DNA of 64,000 nt from Haloferula rosea (GTDB lineage: Bacteria; Verrucomicrobiota; Verrucomicrobiia; Verrucomicrobiales; Akkermansiaceae): NCBI RefSeq assembly GCF_016595525.1, contig NZ_JAENII010000001.1, positions 248,001 through 312,000 of the forward strand, in the 5' to 3' direction. The notes under the pieces are model-generated. The model was not told the origin of the DNA. It was given only the letters and a program-made list of their open reading frames with translations, and did not search any database. A program made the translations under genes and the position numbers. This document shows, piece by piece, positions 49,998-64,000 of this stretch. Numbering within the stretch: the first letter of the stretch is position 1; each line of letters begins with the position of its first letter.

Positions 49998-50487
49998 GAC
50001 TGGGTTTGGGTTGGATTGGATCAGGTCTCGCGTCTCCCGGAAGGGAAAATGAAAAACCTTGGGATTTGATCAATCAACGGGTTGGGTGCGGAAAATCGCA
50101 CCATTATTGGGAAAATGCGACCACAATCTGTGTATGCCATGTATTCCCTGTTGAGCAGCGACTTTCGACTTCGGACCATGACAGGCGATGCCCCAATCCC
50201 GGGCTGAATCCGGGATGGGTCCTCAGCTACTCCTCCATAAATTCCTGAGAAATAAGGGGGTTAGGGAGAATGTAAAAAAATGCAGAATAGGGCTTGTCAC
50301 CTTGAAGTTCCTGAGTAGTCTCGCCGCCCCCAACAACGCGGCCTGTCATTGCGAAAGCAAAACGGGCTGCTTCGACAATCTCCATTAACTATCGGGTGCA
50401 GCACCGGAAAATTGGCTCCTGCGAGGGAATCTCTCGCCGGTGGTCGGTGCGCCCCAAACGCAAACACCGAAACTCCGCAGGAATCTT
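49998..50487. other. divergent intergenic region between prepilin-like gene and rpsL
   Basis: These 490 bp must hold promoters for both directions, but no convincing -35/-10 pair stands out. Two small hairpins can be drawn: GGTGCG/CGCACC (50085-50102) and ATCCCGG/CCGGGAT (50196-50216). A third, with a 7-bp stem including one G-T pair, lies just upstream of rpsL around GCGAGGG-AATC-TCTCGC. Short open frames here have no coding character. No riboswitch or repeat is recognised. Confidence 0.5.
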
Positions 50488-50865
50488 ATGCCGACCATCA
50501 ACCAGCTTGTCCGCAAGGGACGTCACGTGCCGGTCGAGAAATCGAAATCGCCCGCCATGGCAAACTGCCCACAACGTCGTGGCGTTTGTCTTCAGGTGAT
50601 GACCCGCACGCCAAAGAAGCCGAACTCGGCTCTCCGTAAAGTCGCCAAGGTCCGTTTGACCAATGGCTTTGAAGTCATCGCCTACATCGGTGGTGAAGGT
50701 CACAACCTCCAAGAGCACTCCATCGTCCTCGTGCGTGGTGGCCGGGTGAAGGACCTTCCAGGTGTTCGCTACCACATCGTCCGTGGTGCCCTCGATACCC
50801 TCGGTGTCGAGAAGCGTCGCCAAAGCCGCTCCAAGTATGGGGCGAAGCGTCCAAAGGCTTCTTAA
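50488..50865 (+). CDS. rpsL: 30S ribosomal protein uS12
   Basis: This 125-aa protein is full length. [12 protein letters not shown] opens it, followed by [22 protein letters not shown] (the Lys whose change gives streptomycin resistance is unmutated), and [17 protein letters not shown] with the conserved Asp that is often methylthiolated. It sits in the decoding centre of the small subunit. It is the first gene of the str-S10-spc cluster. The frame extends upstream to 50440, but ATG 50488 gives the family N-terminus. There is no Shine-Dalgarno. Confidence 0.97.
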
Positions 50866-50894
50866 TTCATCATAATCCTTAGCTTTAACTGATC

Positions 50895-51368
50895 ATGTCC
50901 CGCCGCAAGCGAGTCTTCACCAAGCCTGATCGTCGCGATTCCCGCTACGACAGTTCCCTCGTCGGTCACCTCATTTCGAAGGTGATGCGCGACGGCAAGC
51001 GTTCCCTCGCGGAGCGCATTGTCTATGCAGCCATCGACAAGGCGAACGAGGGCGTCGACACCATCGACCCTCTCGAAGTTGTCACCCGTGCCGTTGAGAA
51101 TGCCAAACCACGCGTCGAGGTGAAAAGCCGTCGTGTGGGTGGTGCCACCTACCAGGTGCCGCTCGAAGTTGACGCCAATCGTTCCGAGTCCCTCGCACTG
51201 CGTTGGATCGTGGGCTTCGCCCGTGGCCGCAAGGGCACGCCGATGCACGTGGCCCTCGCCAACGAGATCAAGGACGCCGCCAACAACCAGGGCAGCTCCG
51301 TTCGCAAGCGCGACGACGTGCACAAGATGGCACAGGCCAACCGCGCCTTCGCCCACTTCCGCTGGTGA
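50895..51368 (+). CDS. rpsG: 30S ribosomal protein uS7
   Basis: This 157-aa protein, starting MSRRKRVFTKP, is of normal length. Landmarks are GHLISKVMRDGKRSLAERIVY, ENAKPRVEVKSRRVGGATYQ and the C-terminal KRDDVHKMAQANRAFAHFRW. It nucleates head assembly by binding the 3' domain of 16S rRNA and is often the translational repressor of the str operon. It lies 29 bp after rpsL. The leader before ATG 50895 (CTTTAACTGATC) has no ribosome-binding motif. Confidence 0.97.
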   Translation: MSRRKRVFTKPDRRDSRYDSSLVGHLISKVMRDGKRSLAERIVYAAIDKANEGVDTIDPLEVVTRAVENAKPRVEVKSRRVGGATYQVPLEVDANRSESLALRWIVGFARGRKGTPMHVALANEIKDAANNQGSSVRKRDDVHKMAQANRAFAHFRW

Positions 51369-51403
51369 TCTGATTCTTACCGCGCCGCAAGGCGCTCCTA
51401 CCG

Positions 51404-53545
51404 ATGTCTGCGAATCCCAACAATCCTGATCGTCCGTTTCCGCTTGAGCGGACTCGGAACATTGGGATTGCTGCGCACATCGATGCCGGCAAGACGACGC
51501 TCACCGAGCGGATTCTTTTCTACACCGGTATGATCCACAAGATCGGCGAGGTGCACGATGGTGCTGCCACGACCGACTGGATGGAGCAGGAGCGTGAGCG
51601 CGGAATTACCATCACTTCCGCCGCCGTCACCACCGAATGGTGGCAGCGCAAGGAAGAGGATATCTTCAAGTCCTTCGAGGACGAGAAGCAGCGCATCAAC
51701 ATCATTGATACGCCCGGGCACGTCGACTTCACCGCCGAGGTCGAGCGTTCCCTCCGCGTGCTGGACGGAGCCATCGTCGTGTTCTGCGGCGTGGCCGGTG
51801 TCCAGCCCCAGACCGAAACGGTCTGGCGCCAGGCAACCAAGTACAACGTGCCTCGATTGGTGTTCGTCAATAAGATGGACCGGGTCGGAGCCGACTTCGA
51901 TCGCGTCTATGACGAGATCAAGGAGAAGCTGGGTGCCAATGCCGTGCGCATCCTCATCCCGATCGGGTCCGAGGAGGATCTCCGGGGACAAATCGATGTG
52001 GTCAACCAAAAGGCCGTCCACTTCGTCGATGACGCCACCTTTGGCTCCACCTACGAGGTCAAGGATCTCTCCGACGAGCAGAAGGAAGAGGCTGAGTTCG
52101 CTTACCAGGAGCTTCTTGAAACCGTTGCCGGGGTCGATGACGAGCTCGCCGAGAAGTTCCTCATGGAGGAACCCATCAGCCGCGAGGACGTCAAGAAGGC
52201 CATTCGCCGTGCAACGATCGCCAACAAGCTGATTCCGGTGGCCGGTGGCTCCGCCTTCAAGAACAAGGGCGTGCAGTGCCTGTTGGATGCGGTCATCGAC
52301 TACCTGCCGAGCCCGATCGACATCGACTCCGCTGTCGGGATGAATCCCGATGACGAAACCGAGCAGATCGAGGTTCCCACCGACGACAACGCCAAGTTCT
52401 GCGCCCTCGCTTTCAAGCTCTGGGCAGACAAATTTGTCGGCAAACTCGTCTTTTTCCGTGTCTATTCCGGCGTCGTTCGGAAGGGCGACACCATTTACAA
52501 TCCACGCACCCGTCAGAAGGAGCGCGTGGGTCGCCTGATCCGGATCCAGTCCGATCAGCACACCGACATCGACGCGTGCTACGCCGGTGACATCGCCGCC
52601 ATGGTCGGCCTGAAGGTCGTCCAAACGGGTGATACGCTTGCCGCCACCGGCTACGACGTGGTGCTTGAGCCGCCAACCTTCCCGGAGCCGGTCATTTCGA
52701 TGGCGGTGGAGCCGAAGACCAAGGCGGATCAGGAAAAACTCGCCGTGGCACTGGTTCGTCTCTCCGAAGAGGATCCGACCTTCATGGTCAAGACCGATGA
52801 GGACACCGGCCAGACCATCATCTCAGGGATGGGCGAACTCCACCTGGAGATCATCGTCGATCGCCTGCGCCGCGAGTTCAAGGTGGAGGCCAATACCGGA
52901 GCTCCGCAGATCGCCTACCGCGAGACCATCACCGCCGCCGCCGATGGCGAAGGCAAATTGGTCAAGCAATCCGGAGGCCGCGGCCAATATGGCCACGTCC
53001 GCCTCCACATGCGCCCGAACGAAAAGGGGAAGGGGCTTACGATCGAAAACAAGATCGTGGGCGGCGAGATTCCCAAGGATTTCCACGGCGCCGTCATGAA
53101 GGGCATCGAGCAGGCCATGAGCAACGGGATCGTTGCCGGCTACCCGGTGGTCGATGTGCATGTCGACGTCCTCGGCGGATCCTTCCACGAGGTCGACTCG
53201 AACGAAAACGCTTTCGCCATGGCCGCCATCTTCGCGATGCGCGATGGCTTCAAGAATGCAGGCCCCATCCTCCTCGAGCCCATCATGGGTGTCGAGGTTT
53301 CCACCCCGGACGACTACCAGGGTGATGTGATGGGGGACCTCAGCCGTCGCCGCGGACAGATCGGCGAAATGGAATCCAAGGGCAACGTGGCCGTCATCCA
53401 CGCCGCGGTGCCACTCAAGGAAATGTTCGGCTACTCCACCGCCGTGCGCACTCTCTCATCCGGTCGTGCCTCCTACTCGATGACTCCGTCACACTTCGAA
53501 CAGGTGCCGCCCAACGTTCTCGAACAAATCATCAACGAACGCTGA
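51404..53545 (+). CDS. fusA: elongation factor G
   Basis: This 713-aa translational GTPase moves tRNAs and mRNA after peptide-bond formation. The G1 motif is [10 protein letters not shown]2 is [12 protein letters not shown]3 is DTPGHVDF, G4 is NKMD and G5 is GGSAF. Domain II is near residues 300-410 and domain IV contains [10 protein letters not shown]. The loop between G2 and G3 ([19 protein letters not shown]) is slightly longer than in Escherichia coli. It lies between rpsG and rpsJ, where the tuf gene that often follows is absent. No Shine-Dalgarno before ATG 51404. Confidence 0.96.
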
Positions 53546-53584
53546 ATCCAGCCAACTACTTCTAACCCCGCTACTTCCGACGCC

Positions 53585-53893
53585 ATGGAAAATCAAAAGA
53601 TCCGCATCCGCCTCCGGGCATTCGACCACCGTGCGATCGACCGCTCCGCTCAGGAGATCGTCGAAACTGCCAAACGCACCGGTGCCAAAGTCGCTGGCCC
53701 GATCCCGCTTCCGACCCGTATCGAGAAGTTCAGCGTGAACCGTTCGGTCCACGTGAACAAGAAGTCGGCGGAGCAGTTTGAAATCCGTACCCACAAGCGC
53801 GTGCTCGACATCGTCGATCCGACCGCACGCACGGTGGATGAGCTCAAGAAGCTCAACCTGCCTGCTGGTGTGGACATCGCCATCCGTATCTGA
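53585..53893 (+). CDS. rpsJ: 30S ribosomal protein uS10
   Basis: This 102-aa protein, starting [19 protein letters not shown], ends with [18 protein letters not shown]. It is the first gene of the S10 segment, following fusA directly. In other bacteria S10 also forms a transcription antitermination complex with NusB. The leader of the gene (CTTCTAACCCCGCTACTTCC) is pyrimidine-rich and carries no Shine-Dalgarno. Confidence 0.97.
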
Positions 53894-53944
53894 GTTGCCT
53901 GACCAGAATAACTCACGTTTCGAAATCTCTAATTACCTTTTCTC

Positions 53945-54586
53945 ATGTCTCTCGGACTCCTAGGCAAAAAACTTGGTATGACCCGTCTCTTTGACGAGGA
54001 ATCCCAAGCCATGATTCCTGTGACTGTCGTCGAAGTCGGCGGCAACACGATTCTCCAGACCAAGACGGTCGAAAAAGACGGCTACTCCGCAGTTCAAGTT
54101 GGTTACAACGACCAGAAGGAACAACGCGTCAGCAAGCCCCTCAATGGTCACTTCAAGAAGCACGATTCCGCACCCAAGCAATTGGTGCAGGAATTCCGTT
54201 TCGAAGAAGGTGCCGAAACTCCTGAAACCCACCCGGGTGCGGAGCTTTTCACCGCCGGCCAGTGGGTCGACGTGATCGGCACCACCAAGGGCCGCGGCTT
54301 CCAGGGTGCGGTCAAGCGTTACGGATTCGGCGGTCTCAAGCAGACCCACGGTTCCATGATGCACCGCCGGACAGGTGCCATTGGTGCCGGTTCCACACCA
54401 GGCCGCGTCTGGAAGAACCAGCAGATGCCCGGTCACATGGGCACCGACCGCCGCACCATCCAGAACCTCAAAGTGGTGGCTGTCCGCCCCGAAGACAACG
54501 TGATCCTCATCTCCGGTGCGGTTCCAGGTCACAAGGGCGCCTACGTCACCGTTCGTCCTGCCGTCAAGAAGCCCGCCACTGCCTGA
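53945..54586 (+). CDS. rplC: 50S ribosomal protein uL3
   Basis: This 213-aa protein begins MSLGLLGKKLGMTRLFDEE and contains the core signature GFQGAVKRYGFGGLKQTHGS followed by GAIGAGSTPGRVWKNQQMPGH. It is an early 23S rRNA binder near the peptidyl-transferase centre. Its length and motifs are normal. The leader (CTCTAATTACCTTTTCTC) is AT-rich and has no Shine-Dalgarno. Confidence 0.97.
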   Translation: MSLGLLGKKLGMTRLFDEESQAMIPVTVVEVGGNTILQTKTVEKDGYSAVQVGYNDQKEQRVSKPLNGHFKKHDSAPKQLVQEFRFEEGAETPETHPGAELFTAGQWVDVIGTTKGRGFQGAVKRYGFGGLKQTHGSMMHRRTGAIGAGSTPGRVWKNQQMPGHMGTDRRTIQNLKVVAVRPEDNVILISGAVPGHKGAYVTVRPAVKKPATA

Positions 54587-54619
54587 GTGGGCCACGCAAC
54601 CTAGCAACCAATTACGAAC

Positions 54620-55228
54620 ATGTCCGCGAAAGTATTTACTGCAGACGACGCCAAGGCGGCGAACATCCTCCTCGCTGAAGAGGGCAAGGGTTCCCAGGCC
54701 GTTCACGACCTCGTGACCGCCTACCGCGCCAACCGTCGCACCGGATCCGCCTGCACCAAGACCCGTGGCGAAGTCCGCGGCAACAACAAGAAGATCTATC
54801 GCCAGAAGGGCACCGGTGGTGCACGTCACGGCGACAAGCGCGCCCCGATCTTCGTCGGTGGTGGCACGGTCTTCGGTCCTCGTCCACGCGACTACTCGAA
54901 GAAGGTCACCAAGAGCGTCCGCCGTCTCGCACTGCAACGCGTCCTGGCCGATATCATCGCCGACGGGAACCTCAAGGTGCTTCCTTCATTCTCGATCGCC
55001 GACGGCAAGACCAAGAGCTTCGTCTCGACCGTCTCCGCTGAAGCTGATCCGAAGAAGGTCCTCATCGTCGCCAAGAGCTTCGATGACACGACCTACCTCG
55101 CCGCACGCAACGTGCAGTGGGCCCAGTTGGTCACCGCCGACAGCGTCAACGTCGAGGAGCTTCTCCACGCCAACACGGTTCTCCTGGTCGAGGACTCGCT
55201 GGAAACCCTCGCCGCCCGCACGGCCTAA
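54620..55228 (+). CDS. rplD: 50S ribosomal protein uL4
   Basis: This 202-aa protein has the exit-tunnel loop TKTRGEVRGNNKKIYRQKGTG and GPRPRDYSKKV, typical of L4. In Escherichia coli L4 is the autogenous repressor of the S10 operon; whether the same holds here is unknown. The N-terminus (MSAKVFTADDAKAANIL) is lineage-like. It starts 33 bp after rplC without a Shine-Dalgarno. Confidence 0.96.
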   Translation: MSAKVFTADDAKAANILLAEEGKGSQAVHDLVTAYRANRRTGSACTKTRGEVRGNNKKIYRQKGTGGARHGDKRAPIFVGGGTVFGPRPRDYSKKVTKSVRRLALQRVLADIIADGNLKVLPSFSIADGKTKSFVSTVSAEADPKKVLIVAKSFDDTTYLAARNVQWAQLVTADSVNVEELLHANTVLLVEDSLETLAARTA

Positions 55229-55248
55229 CTCCTCCTCCGAACAGTGCC

Positions 55249-55533
55249 ATGAAAGATCTTTATCAAGTCATCAAGAACGTCCGCATCTCGGAGAAGGCCA
55301 CGATGCTCAACGAGCTCAACAACGAAGTTGTGCTCGAAGTGGATCGCCGCGCCAACAAGCTCGAGATCAAGCGTGCCGTCGAACAATTGCTCGGCAAGAA
55401 GGTCGTGGGTGTCCGCACCCTCAACCAGGCCGGCAAGTTGAAGCGTCAACGTCGTGCCGACGCCGGTCGCACGAACCACTGGAAGAAGGCCATCGTCCGT
55501 CTCAAGGAGGGCGAGAACCTCGACCTCGTATAA
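55249..55533 (+). CDS. rplW: 50S ribosomal protein uL23
   Basis: This 94-aa protein starts MKDLYQVIKNVRISEKATML and contains KLEIKRAVEQLLGKKVVGVRT. It lies at the tunnel exit and docks SRP and trigger factor. The frame is open upstream into rplD; ATG 55249 is chosen because it gives the family N-terminus, 20 bp after the rplD stop. Confidence 0.96.
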   Translation: MKDLYQVIKNVRISEKATMLNELNNEVVLEVDRRANKLEIKRAVEQLLGKKVVGVRTLNQAGKLKRQRRADAGRTNHWKKAIVRLKEGENLDLV

Positions 55534-55576
55534 ATCCATTTTTCCCCAGCATTAACGCCTAACCCTCTAGCGAGCC

Positions 55577-56419
55577 ATGCCTCTTAAAGAGTTTAGACCC
55601 CTTACTCCGCCACAGCGCTACAAGGTGCTGCCGTCCTTCGAGGAAGTCACCAAGAAGACTCCCGAAAAGTCGTTGCTTTCACCGCTCAAGCGTAGCGGTG
55701 GACGGAACAACACCGGACGCATCACGACCCGTCACATCGGTGGCGGTCACAAGCGCCACTACCGCCTCGTCGACTTCAAGCGCCGCAAGCACGATGTGCC
55801 TGCCAAGGTGCTCGGAATCGAATACGACCCGAACCGCACCTGCCGCATCGCCCTCATCCAGTATGAGGACGGCCAGAAGAGCTACATCCTGTCGCCAGCC
55901 GGGCTCGAAGTCGGCGCGACCGTTGTCGCCGGCGCCAAGGTGGCTCCAAAGCCGGGCAATTCGATGCCTCTCAGTGAAGTGCCACTCGGAACCGCGATCC
56001 ACAACATCGAGCTCATCCCGGGCAACGGTGGCAAGGTGGCCCGCGCCGCCGGTCAGCAAGCCATCCTTTCCAACCGTGACGGTGAGTGGGCGCTGGTGAA
56101 GATGCCATCCGGTGAGATCCGCCGCTTCAATTCCAACTGCTACTGCACCATCGGTCAGGTCGGCAACCGCGACCACATGAACGAGGTGTCCGGCAAGGCT
56201 GGCCGCACCCGCTGGCAGGGCACCCGCCCGACCGTCCGCGGCATGTGCATGAACCCCGTCGACCACCCGAACGGTGGTGGTGAGGGTAAGTCGAAGTCCG
56301 GTGGTGGTCGTCAGCACCTTCTCAGCCCATGGGGCCACGCGAAGGGCGAGAAGACCCGCAAGAAGAAGAAGCCGACCGGCACCTTCATCGTCGAACGCCG
56401 CAAGAACAAGAAGCGCTAA
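55577..56419 (+). CDS. rplB: 50S ribosomal protein uL2
   Basis: This 280-aa protein shows [36 protein letters not shown], and the late [18 protein letters not shown] with the invariant His region near the peptidyl-transferase centre. It ends with [12 protein letters not shown]. Normal length. The leader GCCTAACCCTCTAGCGAGCC has no clear Shine-Dalgarno. Confidence 0.97.
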
Positions 56420-56436
56420 ACCGAACCATTTGAATC

Positions 56437-56706
56437 ATGCCACGTTCCCTGAAAAAAGGTCCATTCGTTGACCAGAAGCTTCTCGCCAAGATCGATGTCG
56501 CCATCGAGAAGGACGACAAGAAGCCCATCAAGACCTGGAGCCGCAAGTCGATGATCACTCCTGATTTCGTCGGCCTGAACTTCGCCGTCCACAATGGCAA
56601 GACCTTCGTGCCGGTGTATGTCACCGAAAACATGGTCGGCCACAAGCTCGGTGAATTCGCCCCGACGCGCATTTTCCGCGCTCACGGTGGTATCGGTAAG
56701 AAATAA
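56437..56706 (+). CDS. rpsS: 30S ribosomal protein uS19
   Basis: This 89-aa protein begins [18 protein letters not shown] and includes [20 protein letters not shown] and [19 protein letters not shown]. It is a head-domain protein contacting the A-site finger. Normal length. Its 3' end contains one copy of a 16-base near-repeat that recurs right before the next, unexpected, gene. Confidence 0.97.
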
Positions 56707-56727
56707 TTCCTGACGCGCATTCTCCGC
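56664..56727. repeat. 16-base near-perfect direct repeat at the left edge of the inserted gene
   Basis: GACGCGCATTTTCCGC at 56664-56679, inside the end of rpsS, recurs as GACGCGCATTCTCCGC at 56712-56727, directly before ATG 56729. Fifteen of 16 bases agree and the offset is 48 bases. It may be the scar of slippage or of the event that brought the coiled-coil gene into the operon. Confidence 0.6.
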
Positions 56728-56728
56728 C

Positions 56729-57442
56729 ATGAAGTCCATTCGCACCATTCGTTCCATCTCCCTCGGCGCCCTCGGGTTGCTGATCGGTGGGACCGCGGGT
56801 GCTCAGGACGAGGGGAATGCCGACCTGCAGCGCATGGTGACGGATCTTCAGATCCGGAACCGCGTGCTGGAGCAGGGGATTGCCGAAGCCAACCGGGCCG
56901 AGAAGGAGGCATCCGAGCAGCTGGCGCAGGTGCGCGAGCGTCTCGAAGCCCTCGGACGCGATCTGCTCGACGGTGGCGACGAGCGCCTGATCCAGGCGAC
57001 CGCCGACATCCAGATTCTCAACGAACGGATCAACCGACTCGAAGGAAGCGCGATGCGCTTCAGCGGATCGGTCTCCGATTACCTGCGGACGGCGCTTGCC
57101 GCAGATCCCGATGCGAGACTTCGTGTCGAAAGCGCCATGCGGGAGCTTGACGAAGTCCTCGGACTAAGGCAGAAGCCCGCCCCCACAGCTCGTAGCACTG
57201 GTTCGGCCCGCCGCGCCAAGGTCATGAGCATCGACAAGGAAAGTGGTCTGCTCGTTCTCAATATCGGGGAACAACAGACCGCTCGAATTGGAACCACCTA
57301 CCGCCTCTACCGGGGCGACCAAGCCTACGGCACCGCCGTGATCGCCGACGTCCGTCAGTCGATTGCAGGTGCCTTTGTCGAGTCCAGAGAGGCGAATGAG
57401 CCTGTCCGACTCGGTGATACAGCCATTCTCGAAACCGAATAA
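56729..57442 (+). CDS. exported coiled-coil protein of unknown function inside the ribosomal cluster
   Basis: This 237-aa protein is not ribosomal. It has a signal peptide (ISLGALGLLIGGTAGAQ), then a strong coiled coil (about 30-115) with heptad-like LQRMVTDLQIRNRVLEQG and EQLAQVRERLEALG. After a proline-rich linker (KPAPTARSTGSARR) comes a small beta-domain (about 158-237; AKVMSIDKESGLLVLNIGEQ, GTTYRLYRGDQAYGTAVI) that loosely resembles FlgT-C-like folds (low confidence). It sits 22 bp after rpsS and 44 bp before rplV on the same strand, so it should be made in large amounts with ribosomal proteins. A periplasmic or envelope role is inferred from the signal peptide. I know no standard member of the S10 operon like it. 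Confidence 0.8.
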   Translation: MKSIRTIRSISLGALGLLIGGTAGAQDEGNADLQRMVTDLQIRNRVLEQGIAEANRAEKEASEQLAQVRERLEALGRDLLDGGDERLIQATADIQILNERINRLEGSAMRFSGSVSDYLRTALAADPDARLRVESAMRELDEVLGLRQKPAPTARSTGSARRAKVMSIDKESGLLVLNIGEQQTARIGTTYRLYRGDQAYGTAVIADVRQSIAGAFVESREANEPVRLGDTAILETE

Positions 57443-57486
57443 TCCGCCACAAGGCACCCAAGACCAACCTTCACTTGCCCGATCCG

Positions 57487-57867
57487 ATGGAAGTCAAGAG
57501 CACCACTAAATTTGTCCGCCTCTCGCCGAAGAAAGCGCGTGACGTCGCCCGTGAGATCCAAGGTCTTCCGGTCTCGACCGCACTCGATATTCTCGCCTTC
57601 ACCCCCAAGAAGGCAGCGTATTACATCAACAAGACGCTCAAGACGGCCATCGCCGACGCCGAGAACAACTTCGCGCTCGATGCCGACACCCTGATCGTCA
57701 AGGAAGCGGTCATCGGAGCCGGTCCATCGCTCAAGCGTTTCAAGCCACGTGCCCGCGGATCCGCAGGCGGCATCCTCAAGCGCACCAGCCACGTTTTCAT
57801 CACCCTCGCCGAAGCACCGGAAGAGGAAGCCAAGCAGAAGCGAGTTCACGTTTCCGCCAAAGCCTGA
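57487..57867 (+). CDS. rplV: 50S ribosomal protein uL22
   Basis: This 126-aa protein begins MEVKSTTKFVRLSPKKARDV and includes KAAYYINKTLKTAIADAENN. The tunnel hairpin GPSLKRFKPRARGSAGGILK is normal for L22. An in-frame TTG at 57475 would add four residues; ATG 57487 fits the family better. It follows the inserted coiled-coil gene rather than rpsS. Confidence 0.96.
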   Translation: MEVKSTTKFVRLSPKKARDVAREIQGLPVSTALDILAFTPKKAAYYINKTLKTAIADAENNFALDADTLIVKEAVIGAGPSLKRFKPRARGSAGGILKRTSHVFITLAEAPEEEAKQKRVHVSAKA

Positions 57868-57894
57868 TCAAGAACCCCGCAACCGAATTTTATC

Positions 57895-58665
57895 ATGGGC
57901 CAAAAAGTCAATCCCATCGGATTCCGTCTCGCCGTCAGCAAGGACTGGCGCTCCAAGTGGTATGCCTCCGGCAAGGACTACGCGGAGAAGCTTCACGAGG
58001 ACCTCAAGATCCGTAAGTACATCAAGAACCGCCTGCAGTTCGCCGCTCTTTCCAAGGTCGTCATCGAGCGTGCCTGGGCAAGTGTCCGCGTGACCCTGCA
58101 CACCTCGCGTCCAGGCCTCATCATCGGCCGCAAGGGTTCCGAGATCGAGCGCATGACCAAGGACCTTCAGAAGCTCTGCAGCGAAGGCAACGTCAAGATC
58201 GACATCATCGAGATCCGCAAGCCTGAGCTTGATGCCCAGCTCGTCGCCGAGCAGGTCGCCGTCCAGCTTGAACGCCGGATTTCCTTCCGCCGCGCCATGA
58301 AGCGCGCCGTGCAGACCACCATGGACTTCGGTGCCGACGGCATCCGGATCCGCTGCGGTGGCCGTCTCGGTGGTGCTGACATCGCCCGTGCCGAATGGTA
58401 TCGCGAAGGCAAGGTGCCTCTTCAGACGCTGCGTGTGCCTCTTGACTACGGTTTTGCTGAAGCCCGCACCGTTTACGGCATCATTGGCGTGAAGTGCTGG
58501 ATCAACAAGAAGGAGGACGCCGACAAGGGCCCAAGCCCGCACGGTGACCGCCGCGACCGCAACCAGCGTCGCCCACGTCGTGACAACAACAACCCGGGTG
58601 GACCCAATGCGGGTGGCCCGGCCCCAGCAGCACCGGCTCCGGCCCCAGCTGCTCCAACAGCCTGA
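57895..58665 (+). CDS. rpsC: 30S ribosomal protein uS3 with low-complexity C-terminal tail
   Basis: This 256-aa protein has the KH domain [17 protein letters not shown] and the C-terminal domain with [14 protein letters not shown] and [18 protein letters not shown]. After residue about 215 an Arg/Asn/Gly tail ([18 protein letters not shown]) and then an Ala/Pro tail ([13 protein letters not shown]) are added. The tail is longer than in Escherichia coli and looks disordered. S3 lies at the mRNA entry pore. Confidence 0.95.
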
Positions 58666-58705
58666 TCATTTCCCAACCTCAACCACTCATTAAGAGTAAT
58701 CAGTT

Positions 58706-59125
58706 ATGCCTTTGATGCCCAAACGCACGAAGTTCCGCAAGTCACACCGCGGTAGCCGCTCTGGCAATGCCCAGCGTGGAACCAGCGTGGCCTTCGGTGA
58801 CTTCGGCCTCCAATGCCTTGGCCGTGCCTGGATGAGCAATCGCCAGATCGAAGCCTGCCGTATTGCGATCAACCGTTTCCTGAAACGTAAGGGAAAAGTC
58901 TGGATCCGGATCTTCCCTCACAAGTCGATCACACGTCGTCCCCCTGAAACCCGGATGGGTAAGGGTAAGGGTGCCGTTGATGGCTGGGTCGCCGTGATTC
59001 GTCCAGGCACCATGCTTTTCGAAGTTGCCGGTGTCCCTGAGTCCCAGGCTCGCGAAGCCATGCGCCTCGCATCCTACAAACTCGGGTTCCCGACCCGTTT
59101 CGTCGTCCGTAATCCTCATTCCTGA
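58706..59125 (+). CDS. rplP: 50S ribosomal protein uL16
   Basis: This 139-aa protein begins [20 protein letters not shown] and includes [20 protein letters not shown] and [19 protein letters not shown]. It organises the A-site tRNA elbow region of the large subunit. Start 58706 versus 58715 cannot be settled. An AAGAG lies 13 bases upstream, too far to be a sure ribosome site. Confidence 0.96.
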
Positions 59126-59146
59126 ACCGCTTAACCGTCTCCAGCC

Positions 59147-59350
59147 ATGGCAACGACCAAGATCAACGAATTCGCTGAGCTCACCGTGAACGAGCTTGAA
59201 GCCAAGCTTCGCGACCTCAAGGAGGAGGCTTTCAACCTCCGTCTCCAGCAGGCCACCGGCCAGCTTGAAAACTCCGCCCGTATCCGCCTTGTCCGCCGCG
59301 ACACCGCGCGGGTTCAGACCTATCTCACTGCCCGCCGCAAGGAGGGTTGA
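59147..59350 (+). CDS. rpmC: 50S ribosomal protein uL29
   Basis: This 67-aa two-helix protein contains [20 protein letters not shown] and [19 protein letters not shown]. It lies near the tunnel exit. Order L16-L29-S17 is standard. The leader (CCGCTTAACCGTCTCCAGCC) has no Shine-Dalgarno. Confidence 0.95.
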
Positions 59351-59379
59351 GTCATTTATCCAACCATTCATTTCCTGCC

Positions 59380-59649
59380 ATGAGCGAGACCCAAGCAGAC
59401 ACTCCCAAGAACCTCCGCAAGACGCGCGTGGGGTTCGTCGTGTCGAACAAGATGAACAAAACGCTGGTTGTTGAGCACGTTGCCCGTGTTCCCCACCCGC
59501 AGTTCAACAAGATCGTCAAGAAGTCGAAGAAGTACTACGTCCACGACGAGAAGGGTGAAGCCCAAGTCGGTGACAAGGTCCGCATCGTCGAGACCAAGCC
59601 GATTTCCAAGTCCAAGTGCTGGGCCCTCGAAGAGGTCCTGACGCACTGA
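59380..59649 (+). CDS. rpsQ: 30S ribosomal protein uS17
   Basis: This 89-aa protein has the OB-fold motifs [20 protein letters not shown] and [18 protein letters not shown]. The short N-terminal [11 protein letters not shown] is lineage-specific. ATG 59380 is chosen 29 bp after rpmC, although the frame is open a little further back. Confidence 0.96.
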
Positions 59650-59680
59650 TTTCCGAACCTTTAGCCTTACTTTTTCCGCC

Positions 59681-60046
59681 ATGATCCAAATGGAATCCCT
59701 TGTTTCGGTCGCCGATAACACCGGCGCCCGCACTGCCAAGATGATTGGCGTCCTCGGCACTCGTTCGCGCAGTGCCGGAGTCGGCGACATCATCACCGCC
59801 CACATCCGTGACTCGATCCCGACCGCTTCCATCAAGAAGGGCACCGTGGTCAAGGCCGTGGTCGTCCGCACCGCGGCTCCGATCCGCCGCACCGATGGTT
59901 CGGTCCTTCGCTTCGACGGCAATGCCATCGTGGTGATCGATAAGGACAACAACCCCCGTGGCACCCGTATTTTCGGCCCTGTGGCCCGCGAACTCCGCGA
60001 AAAGCAGTTCATGAAGATCGTGTCGCTCGCACCCGAAGTTCTCTGA
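59681..60046 (+). CDS. rplN: 50S ribosomal protein uL14
   Basis: This 121-aa protein begins [19 protein letters not shown] and shows [20 protein letters not shown] and [20 protein letters not shown]. It forms an intersubunit bridge. It opens the spc segment; no gap or promoter separates it from rpsQ. Confidence 0.97.
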
Positions 60047-60059
60047 TCCCGCAGCACCT

Positions 60060-60284
60060 ATGAAGACGCACGTCAAGAAAGGCGACGAAGTTGAAGTCAT
60101 CGCCGGCAACCACAAGGGCAAGCGCGGCACCGTGCTTTCCGTCAACGTTGGCAAGAGCCAGGTGATTGTCGAAGGCGCCCGCAAGATCAAGAAGGCGACC
60201 CGCCCGACTGAGACCAATCCCGATGGTGGCATCATCGAACAGGATGGCCCCATCCATATTTCCAATGTGAAAAAACTGGGCTGA
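60060..60284 (+). CDS. rplX: 50S ribosomal protein uL24, short form
   Basis: This 74-aa protein has the KOW motif [20 protein letters not shown] and ends with [12 protein letters not shown]. It is about 30 residues shorter than the Escherichia coli form, lacking the C-terminal extension after the SNV segment. The sequence is otherwise intact, so this looks like a naturally short version, not a broken gene. Confidence 0.94.
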
Positions 60285-60347
60285 AACCCACCGGTTTCCG
60301 CCCGCGCTTAAGCGTAACCAAAACTAGCGCTGACCCGCTGAAGAACA

Positions 60348-60926
60348 ATGAGTACACCCGTCCTTAAAAAGCACTACCTGGAGAAGGTTGTGCCGGCTCT
60401 CAAAGAGAAGCTCGGCTACACCAATCCCCACCAGGTGCCGGCTCTCGAGAAGATTGTCGTCACCTCCTGCATGGGCAATGCCCCTGACCGCAAGGTCGCC
60501 GTCGATGACGCCGTCCTTGAAATCGCGAAGATCACCGGCCAAAAGCCGTCGATCACCTATTCGAAGAAAGCCGTTGCGAACTTCAAGTTGCGCGCTGGTG
60601 AACCCCTCGGTGCCCGCGTCACGCTTCGTGGCGAGAACATGTGGGAGTTCCTCTACCGCTTCATCAACGTGACCGCCCCGAACATCCGCGACTTCCGCGG
60701 CATCAGCTCGAAGAGCTTCGATGGTCAGGGCAACTACGCCGTGGGCTTCGCCGACCAGTCGATCTTCCCGGAGATCGAGCTTGATCAGATCAAGCGTCAG
60801 ATTGGGTTCGACCTGATCTTCGTGACCACGGCCAAGACCGACGACGAAGGCCGCACCCTGCTTGCTGAGCTGGGCATGCCATTCCGCGACATCAAGAAGG
60901 ACGCTGCCGAAGGTGCTGCTGCCTGA
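60348..60926 (+). CDS. rplE: 50S ribosomal protein uL5
   Basis: This 192-aa protein includes PALEKIVVTSCMGNAPDRK, ITGQKPSITYSKKAVANFKL and NYAVGFADQSIFPEIELDQI. It binds 5S rRNA. The C-terminal DAAEGAAA is an added tail. A 63-bp spacer after rplX holds the palindrome CGCTTAAGCG (60305-60314). The gene usually next, rpsN, is not here. Confidence 0.96.
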   Translation: MSTPVLKKHYLEKVVPALKEKLGYTNPHQVPALEKIVVTSCMGNAPDRKVAVDDAVLEIAKITGQKPSITYSKKAVANFKLRAGEPLGARVTLRGENMWEFLYRFINVTAPNIRDFRGISSKSFDGQGNYAVGFADQSIFPEIELDQIKRQIGFDLIFVTTAKTDDEGRTLLAELGMPFRDIKKDAAEGAAA

Positions 60927-60960
60927 GACCCGAAACAGACTACCAACAGGACCTAATATC

Positions 60961-61359
60961 ATGGCTGTTCTCACAGATCCCATTTCCGATTTCCTCACCC
61001 GCTTCAAGAATTGCTGCCGGGCTGGAAACGAGGAATTCTCCGCTCCCTATTCCCGCATGAAGGCAGACATTGCCAAGATCCTGCAGGAAGAAGGCTACAT
61101 CTGGAACTACGAGCTGGTGACCACCGAGCAGTTCCCAGAAATCAAAGTCAAGGCCCGCTACGTCGACGGCCGTCCCGTGCTCACCGACCTCAAGCGGGTC
61201 TCCAAGCCGGGCCGCCGTGTCTATGCTGGTTCCAACGACATCCCACGCGTTCTCAACGGTCTCGGTATCGCGATCGTTTCGACCTCGAAGGGTGTGATGA
61301 CCGGTAACTCCGCCAAGCGCTCCAGCCTCGGTGGCGAGATCCTCGCCAACGTCTGGTAA
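60961..61359 (+). CDS. rpsH: 30S ribosomal protein uS8
   Basis: This 132-aa protein begins MAVLTDPISDFLTRFKNCCR and ends with NSAKRSSLGGEILANVW, with ISTSKGVMT-like STSKGVMTGNSAK. It binds 16S helix 21; in Escherichia coli S8 represses the spc operon. The frame is open upstream into rplE; ATG 60961 gives the family start. It follows rplE directly where rpsN would be expected. Confidence 0.96.
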   Translation: MAVLTDPISDFLTRFKNCCRAGNEEFSAPYSRMKADIAKILQEEGYIWNYELVTTEQFPEIKVKARYVDGRPVLTDLKRVSKPGRRVYAGSNDIPRVLNGLGIAIVSTSKGVMTGNSAKRSSLGGEILANVW

Positions 61360-61386
61360 ACCCCAACACGAGAAAGGAAAACTACC

Positions 61387-61926
61387 ATGTCACGAGTTGG
61401 ATTGAAACCGATCAGCCTGCCTGAAAAGGTGAAGCTTTCGGTCAGCAACGGAACCGTTCAGGTCGAAGGACCGAAGGGTAAATTGGATTTCGCCCTGCCG
61501 GGTGGAGTTAGCGTCTCCGAAGAGGACGGCAATGTCGTCGTCTCCCGGGCCTCCGAATTGCGCGAGCACCGCGCCCTTCACGGCACCGTCCGGAGCATCG
61601 TCAACAACATGATCACCGGGGTCACCCAGGGTTTCGTCAAGGAACTTGAGATCCAGGGTGTGGGTATGCGTGCCGCCGTCAAGGGCAAGGACCTTGACCT
61701 CGCGCTCGGCAAGTCCCACCCGATTCTTCACCCGATCCCATCGGAACTGACCGTCAGTGTCGCTGACAACACCAAGATCAAGGTGGAAGGCATCGACAAG
61801 CAAATGGTCGGCCAGTTCGCCGCAGAAGTCCGTAGCTACTACCCACCTGAACCCTACAAGGGCAAGGGCGTGCGCTACGTCGGAGAATACGTTCGCCGCA
61901 AGGAAGGCAAGAGCGTCGGTAAATAA
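61387..61926 (+). CDS. rplF: 50S ribosomal protein uL6
   Basis: This 179-aa protein begins [19 protein letters not shown] and ends with [20 protein letters not shown]. Two repeated beta-alpha domains are evident. The leader GAGAAAGGAAAACTACC before the ATG is one of the few places in the cluster with a plausible Shine-Dalgarno (AAAGGA). Confidence 0.97.
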
Positions 61927-61949
61927 TAACCCGCACCATTTCCAGAATC

Positions 61950-62306
61950 ATGAGTCAACTCAATCGCAAGGAAGTGCGCCGCCGGATCCACAAGCGGATC
62001 CGCCGCAAGGTCGCCGGCACTGCCGAACGCCCACGCCTCGCCGTGCACTACTCGAATCAGCACATCTACGCCCAGGTCATCGACGATGCCAGCGGCAACA
62101 CGGTGGTTTCCGCTTCGACGCTCGACAAGAGCGTGGAGAAGGGGGCATCGAACGTGGCTTGTGCGACCTCCGTCGGCAAACTGCTTGCCGAACGGGCCAA
62201 GGAAGCCAATGTCAGCGCCGTGGTCTTCGACCGTGGCGGTCATCTCTATCACGGAAAAATCAAAGCTCTGGCTGACGCTGCGCGTGAAGCTGGTCTGCAA
62301 TTCTAA
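61950..62306 (+). CDS. rplR: 50S ribosomal protein uL18
   Basis: This 118-aa protein includes [40 protein letters not shown] and [20 protein letters not shown]. It binds 5S rRNA. Normal length and order. No Shine-Dalgarno in the leader CCATTTCCAGAATC. Confidence 0.97.
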
Positions 62307-62324
62307 TCTCTCGCGCATATCGTC

Positions 62325-63026
62325 ATGGTGACAAGCAACGAATCAGCTCCCGCTCCGAAGTCCGACTCCACTCCAGCACCCGCCGGTGACAACAAGGCCA
62401 TTGGGCCCGTCGCAGGCAGCGGTGGTTATGGAGGTCCAGGAGGCCCGGGTGGCGGACGTGGACAAGGCGGACGTGGACAAGGTGGACGTGGAGGCGGACG
62501 GGGTCGTGGACCACGCCGTGAGCCACGCGAGCCCGACATGATCGACGGTAAGGAAATCACCGAGAAGGTGGTCTTCATCAACCGTTGTGCGAAGGTGGTC
62601 AAAGGTGGTCGTCGTTTCAGCTTCTCCGCCCTCGTGGTGGTGGGTGACAAGGACGGCAAGGTCGGACTTGGTTTCGGCAAGGCCAACGAGGTCGCAGACT
62701 GCATCCGCAAGGCCAGCGAGTATGGCAAAAAGGAGCTGGTGAAGATGAATCTTGCCGATGGCACGATTCCTCACGAGATCTACGCTGAATTCGGTGGTGG
62801 CAAGGTGCTGCTCAAGCCGGCATCTCCGGGAACGGGGATCATCGCCGGTGGTGGTGTCCGCGCCGTCTGCGAAGCGGTCGGTATCCGCGACGTGCTCGCC
62901 AAATCACTTGGATCGCAGAACCACGCAAATGTGGTGAAGGCGACCCTCAAGGCACTTTCCGAACTCCGGACCCGCGATCAGGTGCTCTCCGCCCGCGGCA
63001 AAAAGAAGAAGGACAAGTCCATCTAA
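62325..63026 (+). CDS. rpsE: 30S ribosomal protein uS5 with Gly/Arg-rich N-terminal extension
   Basis: This 233-aa protein has a normal S5 core from about residue 75 ([52 protein letters not shown]). It is preceded by about 70 extra residues: an Ala/Pro/Ser part ([16 protein letters not shown]) and then a run of RGQGG/RGGG repeats ([20 protein letters not shown]). The extension resembles RGG RNA-binding tails. ATG 62325 is the only start before the repeats. S5 is part of the mRNA entry pore and of decoding accuracy. Confidence 0.95.
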
Positions 63027-63029
63027 GGA

Positions 63030-63066
63030 ACTCTGAACGTCGAACGTCGAAAATCGAAATTCGAAT
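63030..63066. repeat. short CGAA-rich repeat between rpsE and rplO
   Basis: The spacer holds GAACGTCGAACGTCGAAAA followed by TCGAAATTCGAA: iterated (AA)CGTCGAA units ending in the palindrome TTCGAA. It differs in texture from all other spacers of the cluster. Similar CGAA-rich intergenic repeats occur, as I recall, in other Verrucomicrobia. Confidence 0.5.
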
Positions 63067-63069
63067 ACT

Positions 63070-63525
63070 ATGAAACTTCACACACTCAAGCCCAACAAGG
63101 GTGCCAAGCACCGCATCAAGCGACTTGGCTGCGGCGAAAGCTCCGGTCTCGGCAAGACATCGGGCAAAGGCCACAAGGGACAGAAGGCCCGCTCCGGCGG
63201 ATCCGTCCGTCCTGGTTTCGAAGGTGGCCAGATGCCCCTTCACCGTCGTCTCCCGAAGAAGGGATTCAACAACAAGGACTTCAAGACGACCGTGTCTGTG
63301 GTGAACCTTGCTCAACTCGAGAAGCACTTCTCCGACGGTGATACCGTCAATGAGGAGATCCTTCGCGAGAAGAACATCGTCAATCGCAACAGCGACATCG
63401 TCAAGGTGCTGGGCCAGGGCAACATCACCAAGAAGCTCACGATCGCCGTGGATGCCATCAGTGGCTCCGCTCGCGAGAAGATCGAGAAGGCTGGTGGCAC
63501 GGTGGAAGCACCGACTGCTGGTTGA
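63070..63525 (+). CDS. rplO: 50S ribosomal protein uL15
   Basis: This 151-aa protein begins MKLHTLKPNKGAKHRIKRLG and has the Gly-rich GKTSGKGHKGQKARSGGSVR plus GFEGGQMPLHRRLPKKGF. It binds 23S rRNA late in assembly. It follows rpsE directly; the small rpmD gene often found between them is missing. Confidence 0.97.
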   Translation: MKLHTLKPNKGAKHRIKRLGCGESSGLGKTSGKGHKGQKARSGGSVRPGFEGGQMPLHRRLPKKGFNNKDFKTTVSVVNLAQLEKHFSDGDTVNEEILREKNIVNRNSDIVKVLGQGNITKKLTIAVDAISGSAREKIEKAGGTVEAPTAG

Positions 63526-63561
63526 GCTTTCGTCCCTCCATTACCGGAATGATTCCGATTT

Positions 63562-63591
63562 GTTGAGGAAGCGCTTGCTCGCTTCCTCAAC
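63562..63591 (+). terminator. perfect 12-bp hairpin between rplO and secY
   Basis: GTTGAGGAAGCG at 63562-63573 pairs exactly with CGCTTCCTCAAC at 63580-63591 around a six-base loop, then GCGTTTAAAA. The stem is strong and the T/A-rich tail is short, so partial termination, attenuation or an RNA-processing site is likely. It lies 36 bp after rplO and 43 bp before secY. Confidence 0.6.
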
Positions 63592-63634
63592 GCGTTTAAA
63601 AGAGCGCCGCTTTTTCTCCCACTTCTAACGACCC

Positions 63635-64000
63635 ATGATTTCCGCTTTCGCGAACACCTGGAAGGTTCCTGAACTCCGCGACCGCATTCTCTTCACCCTC
63701 GCGATGATCGTGATCGTGCGCCTCGGCGTCCACGTCACGCTTCCGGGAGTGGACGCCACCGTCATCGACGCGTGGATGGAGTATGCGAAGAAGAACCAAG
63801 ATGCCACCCAAGGTGGCGGCTTGCAGGCCATCCTCGGGATTTTCTCGGGGGGTGCCCTTCAGCAGGCGGGCGTCTTCGCCCTTGGCATCATGCCCTACAT
63901 CTCGGCATCGATCATGATGCAGCTGATGACGGCGGTGGTGCCGAAGTTGTCCCGTCTTTCCCGTGAAGATGGCGGCCGCCAGAAGATCACCCAGTTCACC
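63635..64000 (+). CDS. secY: protein translocase subunit SecY (partial, cut by window end)
   Basis: The first 122 codons are present, starting MISAFANTWKVPELRDRILF. TM1 is FTLAMIVIVRLGVHVTLPG, followed by the plug region with GGLQAILGIFSGGALQQAGVF and the TM2 motif ALGIMPYISASIMMQL. SecY forms the membrane channel for Sec-dependent export, which the many signal-peptide proteins of this window need. The 3' end lies outside the window. No Shine-Dalgarno (leader CTTCTAACGACCC). Confidence 0.95.
   Translation, partial: MISAFANTWKVPELRDRILFTLAMIVIVRLGVHVTLPGVDATVIDAWMEYAKKNQDATQGGGLQAILGIFSGGALQQAGVFALGIMPYISASIMMQLMTAVVPKLSRLSREDGGRQKITQFT

Follow-up and report, generated by a model that had tools for sequence, protein, structure and literature searches.

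A predicted exported protein with a helical stalk and a small beta barrel is encoded directly upstream of rplV in the S10 operon of Verrucomicrobiota

The S10-spc-alpha cluster holds, besides its ribosomal protein genes, the non-ribosomal genes secY, adk, map, infA and rpoA. Elsewhere in bacterial genomes, the rod-shape protein MreC is built from a membrane-proximal N-terminus, a coiled coil and a beta barrel, in that order. FlgT, from the flagellar H ring of Vibrio (PF16538; PDB 3w1e and 8z5n), is an exported protein with a small C-terminal beta barrel, and the same kind of barrel forms the N-terminal domain of the alpha/beta subunits of F1/V1-ATPase, which are cytoplasmic and carry a catalytic core. 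Few bacterial gene orders are as stable as that of the S10 cluster, which has been studied in gammaproteobacteria and Bacilli (PMC8046335). CT421.2, a small protein whose function is not known, has been proposed as a PVC marker from Chlamydiae to Planctomycetes (Gupta et al., 2012, PMC3444138); compared by description only, and as far as the text of that paper shows, it is a different protein from the one presented here. In a search of open-licence papers, neither this gene nor an insertion between rpsS and rplV was described, and no experimental work on the protein came up. It is a real, conserved gene that has apparently gone undescribed so far.

The gene was read in a window of 64,000 nucleotides from Haloferula rosea, which is the whole stretch of DNA analysed and to which all positions refer (Table 1). 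A preliminary description had placed an ORF in tight spacing between rpsS and rplV, and both points were confirmed: ribosomal genes flank the stalk protein gene on both sides on the same strand, both neighbours are identified by TIGRFAM matches, and the gene is separated by 22 nt from rpsS and by 44 nt from the likely start of rplV. This start is placed at ATG 57487, rather than at the in-frame alternative TTG 57475, because homology starts at that codon. The gaps are similarly short in 29 relatives, at 20-64 nt on the rpsS side and 9-52 nt on the rplV side. Downstream, the ribosomal gene block extends as far as the export channel gene secY.

Table 1. Positions of the stalk protein gene, its predicted parts and its operon neighbours in the window
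Feature	Position	Strand	Evidence
rpsS (30S ribosomal protein S19)	56437..56706	+	Upstream neighbour; TIGR01050 140.8 bits, PF00203 E 1.9e-37
Exported stalk protein gene, 237 aa	56729..57442	+	Exact ORF; orthologues; dN/dS 0.07-0.32
Predicted signal peptide, residues 1-25 (MKSIRTIRSISLGALGLLIGGTAGA)	56729..56803	+	Hydropathy rule; AxA-type site before Q26
Helical stalk (predicted), residues 27-144	56807..57160	+	AlphaFold2 model m8550023872fc
C-terminal small beta barrel (predicted), residues 160-236	57206..57436	+	pLDDT >90; FlgT C-terminal domain match; family-wide conservation
rplV (50S ribosomal protein L22)	57487..57867	+	Downstream neighbour; TIGR01044 120.8 bits
rpsC	57895..58665	+	Next operon gene; gene order kept in relatives
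secY, start (runs past window end)	63635..64000	+	Identity by eye from translation

Several other features of the block were recorded. The product of rpsC ends in a long tail rich in Asn, Pro and Ala (58500-58665), that of rpsE begins with a Gly/Arg-rich, RGG-like extension (62325-62460), and rpsN is missing between rplE and rpsH (60926-60958), its place in many bacteria. At six surveyed loci (L022, L024, L025, L028, L029 and L031), the rplV and rpsC matches lie about 300-480 nt apart, against the usual spacing of about 30, and L22 may be extended there or an extra small gene may be present.

The profile search and the survey of rpsS-rplV synteny that the preliminary description had suggested were run, and they show the gene to be conserved across Verrucomicrobiota. 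A homologue is present in 55 of the 57 genomes drawn as relatives, including all 49 of good quality, and 29/29 same-family relatives read at locus level carry the gene between rpsS and rplV, in the same orientation as both; three GTDB contigs have the same arrangement and are not independent of these 29. Within the class, the family profile matches 161 of 236 good genomes. The remaining 75 have no match to the first profile, and in several of them rpsS is followed directly by rplV, so that the gene is dispensable in some lineages. Among class genomes outside its own family that have a match, 115/121 carry it directly downstream of rpsS, from a comparison of best matches with rpsS positions, as do 24 genomes of other classes. 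A strain-specific insertion or ORFan, which if also unexpressed would have undone the original proposal, is thus ruled out by homologues at the same place in relatives, class and phylum.

When profile matches are compared with rplV positions, 59 outside-class genomes, belonging to 19 families, have the gene directly ahead of rplV. Some outside-class loci where it seemed to lie elsewhere turned out, on reading, to have it immediately before rplV and far from rpsS. In 38 genomes rpsS and rplV are separated, and the gene stays with rplV in 35 of them, a retention that may reflect a single old split event. These results therefore tie the gene to rplV (uL22): it does sit in the rpsS-rplV context originally emphasised, but its conserved partner is rplV and not the pair. 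It looks ancestral in the phylum, though some lineages are without it. At L249, L251, L252, L253 and L254, and in the 35 genomes with the split, the S10 operon is broken before the block formed by the stalk gene and rplV, and the same break, with rpsS on its other side, was seen in most outside-class families examined. One further locus (L112 in G106, 1779-2332) has a 541-nt rpsS-rplV interval with no recognisable homologue, representing a decayed copy or another gene.

The gene evolves under purifying selection, as indicated by the dN/dS values against relatives (Table 1), which together with homologues in the same position throughout the phylum rule out a chance ORF. It is single-copy, the next best locus in the genome reaching only E = 0.002 with the family profile. 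Another contig of the genome carries two distant paralogues in tandem (G000:C4:74305-75716; L203, L204, L255), and tandem pairs of membrane-anchored helix-plus-barrel paralogues were also seen at L171, L172 and L174. These verrucomicrobial paralogues outside the operon resemble the stalk protein in having an anchor, helices and a related barrel, but differ in their neighbours and in their separate branch of the barrel-domain tree. In this tree the rplV-linked orthologues stand apart from the anchor-helix-barrel paralogues encoded elsewhere (SH-aLRT 98), with 4 label changes versus 27 in shuffles; the barrel offers few columns, and inner branches are weak. Rows breaking the label pattern were re-read by hand, whereby L217-L220, L222, L223 and L215 proved to be rplV-linked, and row L242 (G115) had an S10 label although no rpsS was located there. 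Barrel divergence correlates with rplV divergence (Spearman 0.345, with 0/500 permutations as high), and a moderate correlation of this kind is what vertical inheritance should give when the sequences are short.

The preliminary description had pictured an exported, helical protein with a small C-terminal beta domain, and this picture is upheld. The N-terminus has a positive n-region (+3) followed by an uncharged hydrophobic core, with a mean hydropathy of 1.97 over a 12-residue window, as the rule for exported (Sec) proteins demands; the AxA-type cleavage site before Q26 was read by eye. The prediction did not fail across the family: under the same simple rule, a hydrophobic N-terminal export signal is found in 90/93 members, in none of 14 ribosomal and EF-G controls, and in 8.7% of shuffles. 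AlphaFold2 models helices at residues 27-79, 83-124 and 127-144, a stalk that is likely a coiled coil, and a beta domain at about 160-236. This barrel is the conserved core of the family, of which two forms emerge from the reading of the intervals at 60 class loci. The long form, of about 240-290 residues, occurs in most families, and the short form, of about 110-125 residues with signal and barrel only, in several others, where the same barrel strands are modelled (pLDDT 96-98). The helical stalk is highly variable and absent from the short forms, so that any role as a spacer would not be universal.

The nearest solved folds to the modelled barrel are those of the FlgT C-terminal domain (Z 11.3 for 8z5n and 10.6 for 3w1e; 74 residues, 1.9 A), and the prediction agrees with that barrel fold. 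FlgT lies about 1 Z ahead of F1-ATPase in the long form and is tied with it in the short form; the N-terminal barrel of the F1/V1-ATPase alpha/beta subunits matches at Z 9.4-9.8 in the long form and up to 10.4 in the short form, whereas the catalytic core of these subunits is absent from the stalk protein. At the level of sequence, FlgT_C is the commonest weak Pfam match, below threshold, in 14/46 members, and the best of ten members scores 21.7 bits over about 21 residues, under the gathering score of 27 bits; the window protein itself has no Pfam FlgT_C match. In contrast to FlgT, the stalk protein has a helical stalk in place of the other domains and is encoded in the S10 operon, here and in relatives, rather than with flagellar genes as a flagellar H ring component would be. 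The modelled barrel may accordingly be likened in function to an FlgT-type barrel, with the protein not classed as a member of FlgT_C, and the fold match gives no certainty as to its partner. MreC shares the order of parts, and a Foldseek search matched the short form to 7eft, but the stalk gene does not belong to an mre operon; MreC membership (PF04085) was rejected given the S10 location and matches in only 2/57 members (best E 0.046). Sub-threshold hits to PspA, Syntaphilin, TraT, ZapB and SMC were discarded as coiled-coil cross-matches, and a defence function was likewise discarded, with weak PADLOC matches in relatives to the coiled-coil proteins JetC and LmuB and none for the window protein. 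The gene resembles secY, adk, map, infA and rpoA as a non-ribosomal gene stably kept in the cluster; however, those are widespread housekeeping genes, whereas this one encodes a predicted exported protein and was found here in Verrucomicrobiota, the phylum surveyed.

Production at ribosomal-protein levels, as originally expected, is not supported. With the operon's own ribosomal genes as reference, and with a background made up of the window and 20 stretches of 20 kb each, codon adaptation reaches 0.53 in the stalk gene (67th percentile among 289 genome ORFs), against 0.57-0.75 for the ribosomal proteins (78th-100th percentile). It is below that of all four flanking ribosomal genes in 23/29 relatives, and synonymous divergence (dS) exceeds that of most neighbours. 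Initiation context does not set the gene apart, because Shine-Dalgarno-like motifs are lacking in all 29 relatives examined, before rpsS and rplV as well as before the stalk gene. Of 16 ribosomal-protein gene starts tested in the window (50895-63070), a single one carries such a motif, as if this group did not rely on it for initiation. No terminator-like site occurs on the + strand at 55500-58700, which, together with the operon-like gaps, suggests co-transcription with the ribosomal operon. An internal promoter was rejected, the single 9-of-12 match (57414-57443) comparing with 0.4 expected by chance, as was a regulatory RNA at the rplV junction, with no covarying structure in 14 relatives and no Rfam match in 50000-64000.

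We give a probability of about 0.5 to the reading of the product as an exported envelope scaffold or adaptor, encoded by a vertically inherited accessory gene of the S10 operon whose transcription rides with ribosome synthesis. The position, conservation, export signal (by rule), fold prediction, purifying selection and ordinary codon usage on which it draws were computed, and from these we infer co-transcription, oligomerisation, a scaffold function, growth coupling and lower output. A phylum-level accessory gene, passed on vertically directly upstream of rplV, would yield a product exported by its N-terminal signal, putatively a cleaved signal peptide in most members and a transmembrane anchor in some. 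The helical stalk, probably oligomeric, would stand in the periplasm and set a distance, and the small, six-stranded C-terminal barrel would bind a partner or form a ring, as that of FlgT does. Operon placement would tie transcription to ribosome synthesis, and thus to growth rate, while ordinary codon usage would hold output under that of the ribosomal proteins. The same codon usage, however, also suits an envelope gene that was inserted before rplV in an ancestor and kept in place because rearrangement of a ribosomal operon is costly, its location having no functional meaning for the protein. This account, tentative as it is, was graded nearly as likely, and it agrees with the clean absence from lineages where rpsS and rplV abut and with the paralogues of the same architecture at unrelated loci. 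It is less easily reconciled with the purifying selection on the protein itself and with the retained linkage to rplV after separation from rpsS, unless the latter stems from one old event.

A structural envelope protein as plentiful as the ribosomal proteins themselves, the idea advanced in the preliminary description, could draw on the in-operon position, the close spacing and a start site that, like those of the neighbours, lacks a Shine-Dalgarno motif, but codon adaptation at the 67th percentile and below the flanking ribosomal genes in most relatives, as well as a dS above that of most neighbours, make it very unlikely. Least probable of all is that secY and the ribosomal genes downstream are controlled through translation and export of the stalk protein, by analogy with SecM, VemP and MifM. 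L22 lines the ribosomal exit tunnel, and an exported protein encoded directly upstream of rplV, in a gene block reaching secY, would be well placed for such monitoring. Nevertheless, a leader peptide needs no folded, conserved domain, and the sequence lends such a role no support: the C-terminus has no fixed, arrest-like residues beyond the GD motif of the barrel, and the rplV junction has neither covarying RNA structure nor an Rfam match. Were export of the protein nonetheless to adjust by feedback the synthesis of L22, of the ribosomal proteins encoded after it and of SecY, which we strongly doubt, ribosome and translocon output would be matched to envelope export capacity throughout Verrucomicrobiota.

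A predicted exported, non-ribosomal protein fixed in the S10 cluster phylum-wide, and kept with rplV after the separation of rpsS, provides a clean marker for the group. It should also bear on genomes that we take to be Akkermansia-like; in A. muciniphila, 26% of the proteome is predicted to have a signal peptide (PMC3048395). The stalk protein also lends itself to testing, as an envelope component that may be dosed in step with ribosome synthesis.
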